Source: an uncultured Eubacteriales bacterium (lineage in GTDB: Bacteria > Bacillota > Clostridia > Oscillospirales > Oscillospiraceae). Taken from it: a stretch of DNA of 64,000 bases. The position numbers were made by a program, and so were the translations under genes. A model generated the notes under the pieces. That model was not told the DNA's origin, did not search any database, and was given only the letters and a program-made list of their open reading frames with translations. Shown here one piece after another: positions 15,276 to 17,656 of the stretch. The first letter of the stretch is position 1, and every line of letters starts with the position of its first letter. Location of the stretch: NCBI GenBank assembly GCA_900317905.1, contig ONIN01000011.1, positions 62,001 through 126,000 of the forward strand, in the 5' to 3' direction.

Positions 15276-15755
15276 TTGAAGATATGGAACAGCTTCCTGG
15301 GGAAGCTATTGATGACTTTTCTGATCTCCATGGTGCCGGTGGTGGAGCTGCGGGGCGCGATCCCGATCGGCGTGGCCCACGGTCTGCCCTTCTGGTGGGC
15401 GATCCCGGTGGCCATCGTGGGCAATCTGGTGCCGGTGCCCTTCATTATTATCTTTATCAAGAAGATCTTCGCCTGGCTCCGCACCAAGAGCAAGTGGCTG
15501 AACGATCTGGTGACCAGACTGGAAAACCGGGCCATCAGCAAGATCGACACCGTGAAAAAGTACCAGTTCTGGGGCCTGTTCATGTTTGTGGCGATCCCGC
15601 TTCCGGGCACCGGCGCCTGGACCGGCGCGCTGATCGCCGCCATGATGGACATGGACTTAAAGGACGCCTGGCCCTCCATCACTTTGGGCGTCATCACCGC
15701 CGGCGCCATCGTGGCATTCGTGACTTACGGCGCAGGAGCATTGTTATTCGGTTAA
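15276..15755 (+). CDS. Small multidrug export-like membrane protein (COG2426)
   Basis: A 159-residue protein with four hydrophobic segments. The family signature is PVVELRGAIPIGVAHGLPFW near the N-terminus and AIPLPGTGAWTGALIAA in the second half. The Pfam name is small multidrug export protein, but the biochemical role is not established. It starts with TTG at 15276, with CGGAGGA eight bases upstream. It probably shares a transcript with the flippase. Confidence 0.87.
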   Translation: MKIWNSFLGKLLMTFLISMVPVVELRGAIPIGVAHGLPFWWAIPVAIVGNLVPVPFIIIFIKKIFAWLRTKSKWLNDLVTRLENRAISKIDTVKKYQFWGLFMFVAIPLPGTGAWTGALIAAMMDMDLKDAWPSITLGVITAGAIVAFVTYGAGALLFG

Positions 15756-15797
15756 AGCTTCAGCCGAAAACGTTGTTTTCGCCTGAGTTCTGCGCTG

Positions 15798-15896
15798 CGA
15801 AAAACATTTTTTGGCGCAAGTACGACTTGCGATAGAAAAAATGTTTTCTCCGCGAGCGGAATTTTGCGCGCCCAAACCAAGTGTGGGCGGTAAAAT
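15798..15896. repeat. Structured dispersed repeat, copy 1
   Basis: A roughly 99-base element matched by a second copy at 28528-28625. It holds three nested or serial inverted repeats: an outer AT stem (GAAAAACATTTTTT with AAAAAATGTTTTC) around an inner CGCAAGT / ACTTGCG hairpin, a CCG-CGAG-CGG hairpin, and CGCCC / GGGCG. The differences from copy 2 mostly preserve pairing. It lies between the COG2426 gene and the lipoprotein gene. Confidence 0.75.
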
Positions 15897-15936
15897 GATA
15901 TTTGATTTTGTTTGTTGATAAGCTTTGGTGATATCT

Positions 15937-16776
15937 ATGAATCATTCAACAACCAAACGTCTGGCGTCGTTGCTGATCGCCTGCGTGCTGCTTTTGAGCC
16001 TCACCGGCTGCGGGGAGGATGTTGGGGAGTACCGCATCCTGAAAACCGTAGGCGAGGAGCGGTTCTCCATCGGCTACCGGGTGGGGGACCCCGTGGCGCT
16101 TTACGTGGACGCGGCCCTTCGGACTCTGGCGGCCGAGGGCACGGTGCATAAGCTGGCCATGCAGTGGCTGGGCACCGACAACACCGCCATGGAGGCGGAC
16201 GAAAAGGCCTTGGACGAGCTGGGCAAGATCCCCAAGCGCACCCTGATCGTGGGCGTCAACGAGAGCTGCTTCCCCCTGAGCTATTCCGACGGGGACACCT
16301 TCTCCGGCTTTGACATCGCTTTGGCCAAGGCGGTCTGCAAGCGGCTGGGGTGGAAGGTGAAGTTCCAGGCCATCGCCAGAAGCGACATCTATATCCAGCT
16401 CACCTCCGGCAACGTGGACTGCATCTGGGGCGGCATGCCCATGGACGACATCAACCTGGACGACAAAGGCAACGAAAAGCCCATGAGCGAGCAGCTGGCG
16501 GTCTCGGAGCCCTATCTGAGAAACGAGATCATCCTGATCACGAGGGTGGACTCCGAATACGGCTCCATGGCCAAGATCAAGGGCAAGACCCTGATGATGG
16601 ACTCCGGGCAGCAGTATATGGATGCCCTCACCGAGAGCGGCCTCCAGGATCGCTTCGGCCAGATCGAGCGCGTCAACGGCGGCGCCCAGCAGTGCTTCGA
16701 GGCGCTCAAAACCGGCCAGTGCGCCGCCATCCTCACGGACAGCGTGGCCCTGAGCTACTACACCAACGTGAACTGA
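15937..16776 (+). CDS. Solute-binding lipoprotein, family 3 type, apparently circularly permuted
   Basis: A 279-residue lipoprotein. The signal peptide ends in LLLSLTGC, so Cys25 should be lipidated. Residues about 101-279 match the first part of an SBP_bac_3 fold in order: TLIVGVNESCFPLSY, FSGFDIALAKAVCKRLGWKV, SGNVDCIWGGM, VSEPYLRNEIIL, then QCFEALKTGQCAAILTDSVA, stopping where the last hinge strand should begin. That missing C-terminal part is at the N-terminus instead: FSIGYRVGDPVALYVDAALR and TLAAEGTVHKLAMQWLG (about 43-79). No ABC permease or ATPase is adjacent. The ligand is probably an amino acid by family; the role is unknown. The start is weak: ATG at 15937, with in-frame TTG and GTG just upstream. 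Confidence 0.83.
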   Translation: MNHSTTKRLASLLIACVLLLSLTGCGEDVGEYRILKTVGEERFSIGYRVGDPVALYVDAALRTLAAEGTVHKLAMQWLGTDNTAMEADEKALDELGKIPKRTLIVGVNESCFPLSYSDGDTFSGFDIALAKAVCKRLGWKVKFQAIARSDIYIQLTSGNVDCIWGGMPMDDINLDDKGNEKPMSEQLAVSEPYLRNEIILITRVDSEYGSMAKIKGKTLMMDSGQQYMDALTESGLQDRFGQIERVNGGAQQCFEALKTGQCAAILTDSVALSYYTNVN

Positions 16777-16846: not shown

Positions 16847-17656
16847 ATGTTTACGCCGAAAGAAGTTGCGCAGAACTATCTCAACGCCTGTGAGACGAAA
16901 GCCAAACTGCCCTTTGGGCGGATGTTCGTGCTGGCCATTCTGGCGGGCCTGTTCATCGCCTTCGCGGGCGCTGCCTCGGGGGCTGCCTCGGCCACGCTGC
17001 CGGGCTCTGCCGCGCGGATCGCCAGCGGCGTCATGTTCCCGGCCGGCCTCGCCATGGTGCTGGTGGCGGGCAGTGAGCTGTTTACGGGAAATAACCTGAT
17101 GATTATGGGAGTGCTGGAGCGCCGGATCACCCTGGCCGCCATGGTGCGGAATCTCATCATCGTCTGGATCGGCAACCTGGTGGGCGGTCTGATCGTGGCC
17201 TTCATCATGGTCTACGGCCACGGGGTCTCCGCCTTCGACGGCGCCTTCGCCGCTGCCGTGGTGAACACCGCCTCGGCAAAAGTGCACATGAGCTTCGGCG
17301 ACGCGCTGCTGCGGGGCGTGGGCTGCAACTTCCTGGTCTGCATCGCGGTGTGGATGTCCAACGCCGCCAAGACCGTAGGAGGGAAGATCGCCGGCCTGTT
17401 TTTCCCCATCGCCGCCTTCGTGGCCTCGGGCTTCGAGCACTGCGTGGCGAACATGTACTACATCCCGGCGGGCATCTTCGCCTCGAAGCTCTATGACATC
17501 CCCGCCGAGGGACTGAACTGGGGCAGCTGCTTTGTGAACAACCTGCTGCCGGTGACCCTCGGAAACATGATCGGCGGGGTGCTGATGGTGGGGGTCGCGG
17601 GCTGGTATCTCTACCTCCTGCCGGATCACAAACTATCCCACATCGGCAAGGCATAA
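16847..17656 (+). CDS. Formate/nitrite transporter family protein (FocA-like)
   Basis: A 269-residue protein of the FNT channel family, with six hydrophobic segments. Family signatures include AGLFIAFAGAASGAAS in helix 1, GSELFTGNN after helix 2, GNLVGGLIVAFI, and the late segment FVASGFEHCVANMY. These pentameric channels pass formate, nitrite or hydrosulfide. With fhs and folD 4-6 kb upstream, formate is the most economical guess. The start has an AAGAGGAG site. A hairpin follows the stop. Confidence 0.9.
   Translation: MFTPKEVAQNYLNACETKAKLPFGRMFVLAILAGLFIAFAGAASGAASATLPGSAARIASGVMFPAGLAMVLVAGSELFTGNNLMIMGVLERRITLAAMVRNLIIVWIGNLVGGLIVAFIMVYGHGVSAFDGAFAAAVVNTASAKVHMSFGDALLRGVGCNFLVCIAVWMSNAAKTVGGKIAGLFFPIAAFVASGFEHCVANMYYIPAGIFASKLYDIPAEGLNWGSCFVNNLLPVTLGNMIGGVLMVGVAGWYLYLLPDHKLSHIGKA

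Follow-up and report, generated by a model that had tools for sequence, protein, structure and literature searches.

The window analysed here is a stretch of 64,000 nucleotides from an uncultured Eubacteriales bacterium of the Oscillospiraceae (contig ONIN01000011.1, positions 62,001 to 126,000), and one of its genes encodes a lipoprotein of solute-binding protein (SBP) family 3. Canonical members of this family run from the N-terminal part of lobe 1 (segment N) through lobe 2 (segment L) to a C-terminal strand and helices that complete lobe 1 (segment B), that is, in the order N-L-B. In the window protein the order is B-N-L. We put at roughly 85% the probability that the gene encodes a lipid-anchored, Venus-flytrap family-3 binding protein with a circularly permuted chain. 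It is a real circular permutant whose clade is conserved, and it represents one visible end of a process that recurs.

Segment order of the window protein

The original prediction held that the SBP_bac_3 landmarks occur in rotated order, with an N-terminal block beginning near residue 101 and the chain ending where the missing part should follow. The translation agrees: FSIGYRVGDP is found at residues 43-52, EGTVHKLAMQWLG at 67-79, TLIVGVN begins at residue 102, and the chain ends in AAILTDSVALSYYTNVN. The rotation is also confirmed by matches to known structures and by a chance test against canonical proteins, both given below. A lipobox, LTGC, is present at residues 22-25, as expected of a bacterial lipoprotein, and its Cys25 is invariant across the 43 rows of the permuted alignment (A1), within which Gly, Pro, Gly and Asp positions are also invariant. 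The sole Pfam match above cut-off is SBP_bac_3 (PF00497; 65.9 bits against a cut-off of 26.4), confined to residues 103-235, with three weaker matches to Phosphonate-bd, NMT1 and DUF5027. The canonical order is not found, and the protein is placed as a permuted offshoot of SBP_bac_3.

The best five chains from a phmmer search of PDB sequences were considered. In four of them the two matched parts are rotated: residues 100-276 align with the first three quarters of the canonical chain and residues ~30-88 with its C-terminus. In 3hv1, for example, residues 101-276 of the window protein correspond to 21-190 and residues 32-83 to 199-252. The fifth chain, 6h30, is a tandem two-domain chain. The single-sequence match of segment B is weak (i-Evalues of 0.44, 12, 76 and 440 in the four rotated chains) because this segment is divergent in the window protein; a profile of 43 sequences makes it clear, with 39.2 bits for 4ohn and 37.7 for 4zv1.

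The chance test used a hidden Markov model (HMM) built from 57 canonical-order proteins only. Segment B alone scored 21.4 bits, against 5.6 for the best shuffle (770 of 1000 shuffles scored at all). Segments N and L alone yielded 112.8 bits and, when followed by the real segment B, 143.3; with a shuffled B placed after the mature protein, the mean was 112.3 and the maximum 119.2 over 200 shuffles. When the window protein was doubled, a single match of 136.2 bits was obtained over model positions 2-225, crossing the junction. These scores therefore indicate that segment B is a true C-terminal segment that stands in a rotated position.

As the original prediction had proposed, the structure was modelled, and AlphaFold2 gave a confident model of the whole chain, segment B included: the predicted local distance difference test score (pLDDT) is 92.7 and the predicted template modelling score (pTM) is 0.85, with helices at 53-67 and 69-78 and blocks at pLDDT 94-98 over residues 31-80. 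According to the AlphaFold2 model and a VIA comparison, the N and L parts would share the canonical family-3 fold.

Several observations weigh against this reading. Segment B of the window protein reaches 36% identity at best to any canonical row. Its packing onto lobe 1 rests on AlphaFold2 confidence, given that Foldseek and VIA keep chain order, and Foldseek TM-scores are moderate (0.35-0.49 by query length among the 50 rows listed). In 16 of the 50 VIA rows listed, the aligned range begins at model residues 49-52, which means that part of the B region was matched, in sequential order, with the chain start. Finally, one relative with the same permuted order, L004 (L004:3427-4275), carries one in-frame stop inside segment B.

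Distribution of segment orders among relatives

Three segment HMMs (N, L and B) were applied to sort open frames by segment order. The loci read contain canonical N-L-B frames, permuted B-N-L frames, a second rotation, L-B-N, and tandem N-L-B-N-L-B frames. With duplicates removed, 56 B-N-L and 8 L-B-N frames were found besides the window gene, a count made without L001, L002, L004, L006-L036, L077, L078, L108 and L158 onward. Automatic picking returned no frame for L007 and shortened frames for L004 (cut by its stop) and L032.

The search for homologues with the same order, also proposed by the original prediction, returned a clade of 31 tree rows from many genera, all of them B-N-L, with canonical rows falling outside. 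The support of this clade is 100/99 in a first tree, and its Shimodaira-Hasegawa-like approximate likelihood ratio (SH-aLRT) is 99 in a tree of 122 rows. The first tree leaves out L001, L002, L004, L006-L036, L061, L065, L077, L078 and L081, which are near-copies, duplicates, fragments or rows with stops; among these, L065 is cut by a contig end and L004 has its stop inside segment B. The 122-row tree has about the same omissions, skips L154 (a double L-B-N chain fused to a permease), and was reduced from 125 rows by removing those with identical first 60 letters. An 85-row tree omits 37 of the 122 rows, namely 23 of the 31 rows of the window's clade and 14 long or redundant ones (including L156 and L157).

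With a profile of the B-N junction (A2), at least 60 of the 150 genomes searched in the window's family gave a match that spans the junction and lies in a frame the size of one SBP, the rows being counted by eye rather than each checked, and a junction match not being proof of permutation. In one further genome, G113, such a match occurs only in a tandem fusion. Among the junction matches at class and phylum level, 20 loci were classified; they comprise nine B-N-L, seven L-B-N, one double L-B-N and one tandem N-L-B-N-L-B, while two (L144 and L153) contain canonical frames alone despite the match, which makes the census of 60 in 150 doubtful. Searched against plasmids, the B-N junction of L149 matched 1500 records, 11 of which cover at least 80% of the query; the top row, a match at 32.7%, is an Enterococcus faecalis record annotated as substrate-binding protein/permease.

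Some relatives carry larger arrangements. In L152:7663-9243, an L-B-N domain is fused to its own permease (also called a permease by NCBIfam), and in L154:6029-8290, two L-B-N domains precede a permease in one fused chain, which may alternatively be read as one canonical domain between split halves. At L058:4707-8187, a single gene run holds an L-B-N SBP, a permease, an ATPase and then a B-N-L gene of the window's clade, so both binding proteins are permuted, in two different ways. A 1142-residue frame in G025:C108 has two junction-spanning SBP matches and is perhaps a multi-domain sensor, not a lipoprotein.

Gene context and ligand site of the window's clade

The original prediction took the lack of an adjacent permease as a sign of a sensor or scavenger. 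The first part holds, since one permease query found no same-strand match within 6 kb of the window gene. The permutation itself is no such sign: of the 32 permuted or tandem frames that do not belong to the window's clade, 24 are followed by a permease at a distance of less than 300 bp, which is where a transporter's binding protein is usually encoded (the 32 include the fragment L065 and some loci truncated at contig ends). Within the clade, none of the 31 genes directly precedes a permease. Seventeen have a same-strand permease upstream, as read by eye from the table; an intact ATPase frame lies between in 16 of these (that of L052 is split), and 16 have another SBP on that strand. The other 14 have no same-strand permease within 6 kb of fetched DNA, some contigs being short, and distant permeases may be missed because one query was used.

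Ligand residues were counted by alignment column, in place of a TxxR regular expression that proved too loose (6 of 31 clade rows, 14 of 32 other permuted or tandem rows and 21 of 59 canonical rows). The three columns, Arg (the carboxylate binder), Ser and Asp, are ones we take to belong to the ligand site by analogy with HisJ/LAO. Arg occupies its column in 46 of 57 canonical rows, 26 of 34 other permuted or tandem rows and no row of the clade (0 of 31), the window protein having Met. The Ser of the GSS loop is found in 54 of 57, 22 of 34 and 2 of 31 rows, respectively, and the Asp in 56 of 57, 32 of 34 and 22 of 31.

Given the loss of Arg and Ser and the gene context, the clade looks like an accessory trap whose ligand has changed, and the loss of this signature fits such a change; the trap may act as a sensor, as a scavenger or as a feeder of an importer. 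The odds are about even that the clade's protein has ceased to be an alpha-amino-acid donor of an ATP-binding cassette (ABC) importer and has become an accessory binder with a different ligand. Two points count against this: the Arg column is a gap in 22 of 31 clade rows, so that calling the residue lost depends on how a shortened loop is aligned, and the Asp persists in 22 of 31 rows, so the protein may still bind amino acids. A plausible though less favoured alternative is that the protein still belongs to an amino-acid importer, as a second donor to one whose genes lie elsewhere in the genome. The 17 genes behind a same-strand permease, 16 with an intact ATPase frame and 16 with another SBP, argue for it, as does a histidine racemase-like gene in three such operons (L046, L047 and L060, by eye); it is opposed by the lack of any clade gene directly before a permease, the lack of Arg in its column (with the gaps noted) and the lack of a same-strand permease match within 6 kb of the window gene.

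Recurrence and origin of the permuted orders

On the 85-row tree, built from rotated sequences, the B-N-L label requires 12 changes (bootstrap range 11-12), at least 9 of which are forced by well-supported branches, and the L-B-N label requires 4, at least 3 of them forced. On a tree of N and L only, the values are 11 (at least 8 forced) and 3. A single ancient B-N-L permutation was rejected: approximately unbiased (AU) tests do not accept one B-N-L clade, with log-likelihood differences of 449 and 741, and 627 for N and L only, and one clade joining B-N-L with L-B-N was also rejected. Given the trees are midpoint-rooted and have long branches, and gains and losses count alike as changes, the number of independent gains is not fixed and reversals are possible.

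Circular permutation is visible between very close relatives. Around genome G334, 7 of 40 genomes match a permuted SBP at E 1e-30 or better, and six of the seven belong to one genus. In this genus L162, L163 and L164 are B-N-L and L165, L166 and L167 are canonical, each followed by permease and ATPase genes; judging from identity and operon place, the six loci are probably orthologous. The canonical L165 and the permuted L163 share 88% identity over N and L (169 residues) and 76% over B (50 residues), and their DNA aligns as two swapped blocks, one of 515 columns (78.3%) and one of 185 (74.6%). Three-frame translations of the DNA that separates the permuted gene from the permease, inspected by eye at the three permuted loci of this genus, showed no remnant of a lost B copy.

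Permutation by duplication predicts a fused tandem copy, so the N-L-B-N-L-B fusions L071 (558 residues) and L151 (516 residues) are the expected intermediate form. On the 85-row tree L151 is sister to two B-N-L genes (support 99/87), and L071 is sister to canonical genes near another B-N-L group. These fusions support the duplication path without proving it. The permuted gene would have arisen by an in-frame tandem duplication of a canonical gene, after which the first N and L and the last B would have been lost. The original prediction's proposal of permutation by duplication is thus backed by the clade-wide order, the fused tandem duplicates, the close canonical and permuted pairs, and the AlphaFold2 confidence over segment B.

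An unlikely alternative is a chimera, in which segment B of a different SBP gene was fused before a truncated one and no true intragenic permutation took place. The closest canonical row of the window protein does differ between its parts (L095 for N and L, copy 1 of L071 for B), and because segment B is short and these rows differ, the two histories are indistinguishable for the window's clade. In younger permuted genes, by contrast, both parts are near the same canonical relative, with identities over N and L and over B of 78% and 66% for L083 against L076, 64% and 63% for L051:10536 against L093, 69% and 64% for L058:4707 against L063, and the values given above for L163 against L165; moreover, the tree of N and L only agrees with the full tree on many changes.

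Position of the lipid anchor

The permuted chain would fold into the same two-lobed trap, with the last part of lobe 1 placed next to the lipid anchor, the old ends joined by some 15-20 linker residues, and the chain finishing inside lobe 2. Mapped on the ancestral arginine-binding protein 4zv1, the B-N-L break falls between residues 176 and 183, and the L-B-N break between 103 and 108 (residues 174-265 of L149 on 11-103 and 32-157 on 108-233). The AlphaFold2 model of this L-B-N protein, from 8 sequences, has a pLDDT of 86.8 and a pTM of 0.75. Assuming the lobe boundaries of LAO/GlnBP, both breaks presumably fall in lobe 2, and therefore both rotations would relocate the N-terminal lipid anchor, placing it on lobe 2 in place of lobe 1. 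The original prediction's claim that the anchor moves to the other lobe thus seems right, on the basis of the chain mapping and these assumed boundaries.

There is a small chance that the trap is instead a domain-swapped dimer, where segment B packs on a second chain and each trap is shared by two proteins. Swapped elements are described for laboratory-permuted ribose-binding protein (PMC10601554); against this, the single-chain AlphaFold2 model is confident (pTM 0.85), and linkers of 15-30 residues look long enough for packing within one chain.

Conservation of the gene

The window protein shares 97%, 92% and 82% identity with L001, L002 and L003, respectively. Against the same three, the nonsynonymous and synonymous rates (dN/dS) are 0.0/0.326, 0.0/0.575 and 0.078/0.83 for segment B, and 0.062/0.289, 0.094/0.137 and 0.289/0.464 for the linker, the loosest part in dN. 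No other part of the gene is as constrained as segment B, on which purifying selection is strong. Among the 56 other B-N-L frames, the distance from the end of B to the start of N is 15-30 residues (median 19), and 53 have a lipobox-like start.

Truncation is rejected because the supposedly missing C-terminal part sits in front and is the most constrained part; misassembly is unlikely given the conservation across genera. That the gene is an artefact or decaying, whether misassembled or a truncated pseudogene, is hardly credible: most listed genomes are spread over many contigs and stops occur in relatives (two TGA in G042, one TAA in G084, one TAG in G386, and that of L004), yet the order is shared by 31 clade rows from many genera, L001-L003 are intact with the same order and conserved neighbours, dN/dS is well under 1, and lipobox-like starts are the rule, a conservation that largely refutes this explanation. 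The L004 copy itself may be decaying, or a sequence error may lie behind its stop.

Neighbouring genes

The features of the gene and its neighbours are presented in Table 1.

Table 1. Features of the permuted gene and its neighbours, in window coordinates.
Feature	Position	Strand	Basis
Circularly permuted family-3 solute-binding lipoprotein, order B-N-L, 279 residues plus stop	15937..16776	+	Sequence, profile matches, AlphaFold2
Signal peptide and lipobox LTGC; predicted lipidated Cys25 at 16009-16011	15937..16011	+	Sequence; Cys25 conservation
Segment B, residues 30-84 (canonical C-terminal strand and helices of lobe 1)	16024..16188	+	Profile matches, AlphaFold2
Linker, residues 85-98, between the old C- and N-termini	16189..16230	+	Loosest part in dN
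Segment N, residues 99-195 (canonical N-terminal part of lobe 1)	16231..16521	+	Profile matches
Segment L, residues 196-277 (lobe 2, C-terminal in the window protein)	16522..16767	+	Profile matches
Small multidrug export family (PF06695), upstream neighbour	15276..15755	+	Pfam
Formate/nitrite transporter (FNT, PF01226), downstream neighbour	16847..17656	+	Pfam

The window and L001-L003 have a common gene order: flippase-like, PF06695, permuted SBP, FNT, ParA-like (by eye) and ferredoxin. In the window, a palindromic repeat lies just before the gene (15756-15936; RNA fold of -63 kcal/mol, z -4.48); the same genome has 15 matches to it when this copy is counted, and the remaining 14 show 76-83% identity. 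Since the gap between the PF06695 gene and the SBP is only 14-15 bp in L001-L003, the repeat seems to be a small repeat element that was inserted recently.

Elsewhere in the clade, a histidine racemase-like gene (by eye) lies between the ATPase and the permuted SBP at L046:983-1756, L047:7293-8051 and L060:8646-9428; that of L047 matches NF052224 and NF033599 below cut-off, and none of the three has a Pfam match. It hints at D-amino-acid or His-related chemistry. Two ATPases, energy-coupling factor (ECF)-like by eye, follow the clade gene within about 1-3 kb in L038, L039, L041, L045, L047, L051 and L063, and are followed by an S-adenosylmethionine (SAM)-methyltransferase gene in all three loci inspected for it, L039 (Pfam), L045 and L047 (by eye). 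In the same-genus relative L037, a gene with a DUF2148 ferredoxin domain (L037:7646-8221) lies between the ATPase and the permuted SBP. The ParA-like, methyltransferase and DUF2148 neighbours gave no functional lead.

Comparison with known binding proteins

Canonical family-3 SBPs (PF00497, PAAT; 4ohn, 3hv1, 4zv1, HisJ/LAO/GlnH) share homologous segments and the lipobox with the window protein, which differs in its B-N-L order, in the absence of Arg and near loss of Ser in its clade, and in having no adjacent permease in the window. GlnPQ, with its tandem SBD1-SBD2 (6h30), has the same kind of junction, from B of the first domain to N of the second; it holds two complete canonical domains, whereas the window protein is a single-domain chain.

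Natural permutation of a binding lipoprotein has a precedent in TpMglB-2 (Tp0684) and its relatives, membrane-tethered proteins named Type Ic or Cluster Bc and also present in Gram-positive gut bacteria, whose authors leave open that the permuted part came from another gene (PMC4990184). TpMglB-2 is a Cluster B, Type I sugar binder with another fold class and permutation point, and the window protein is not of its family; it is also described as one family found by search, compared with repeated events in family 3. Permutation between the glycine-betaine-binding proteins OpuAC and ProX was found with CPSARST among 2B4L, 1R9L and 1SW1, at less than 24% identity (PMC2395249), which indicates an old divergence, in contrast to the pair described here, at 88% over N and L within one genus. 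Related binding proteins have also been permuted in the laboratory for Förster resonance energy transfer (FRET) sensors (cited in PMC7683729; see also PMC5087393); those permutants of amino-acid-binding proteins are engineered, while the window protein is natural.

In the open-access literature, outside which most subscription papers lie, no report of naturally permuted family-3 SBPs was found. Binding proteins with permuted chains have been described in two other families, and recurrence within family 3 appears to be new. As a rule, natural circular permutations come to light between distantly related proteins, which makes their origin and selection hard to test. With a canonical and permuted pair at 88% identity in the same operon position, and with tandem fusions, the mechanism, cost and benefit of permutation become testable with natural proteins.

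Just short of an even chance, in our estimate, is the broader proposal that in Clostridia and their kin the segment order of family-3 lipoproteins is not fixed, and that they have been permuted many times, via tandem fusions, at two sites that both place the anchor on lobe 2, recently enough for both orders to share equivalent operons of one genus. If true, such convergence would imply that selection acts on the point at which the trap is attached to the membrane. The finding is relevant to the effect that a binding lipoprotein's point of tethering has on delivery to its permease; in addition, profile searches that assume one order may call permuted genes truncated.
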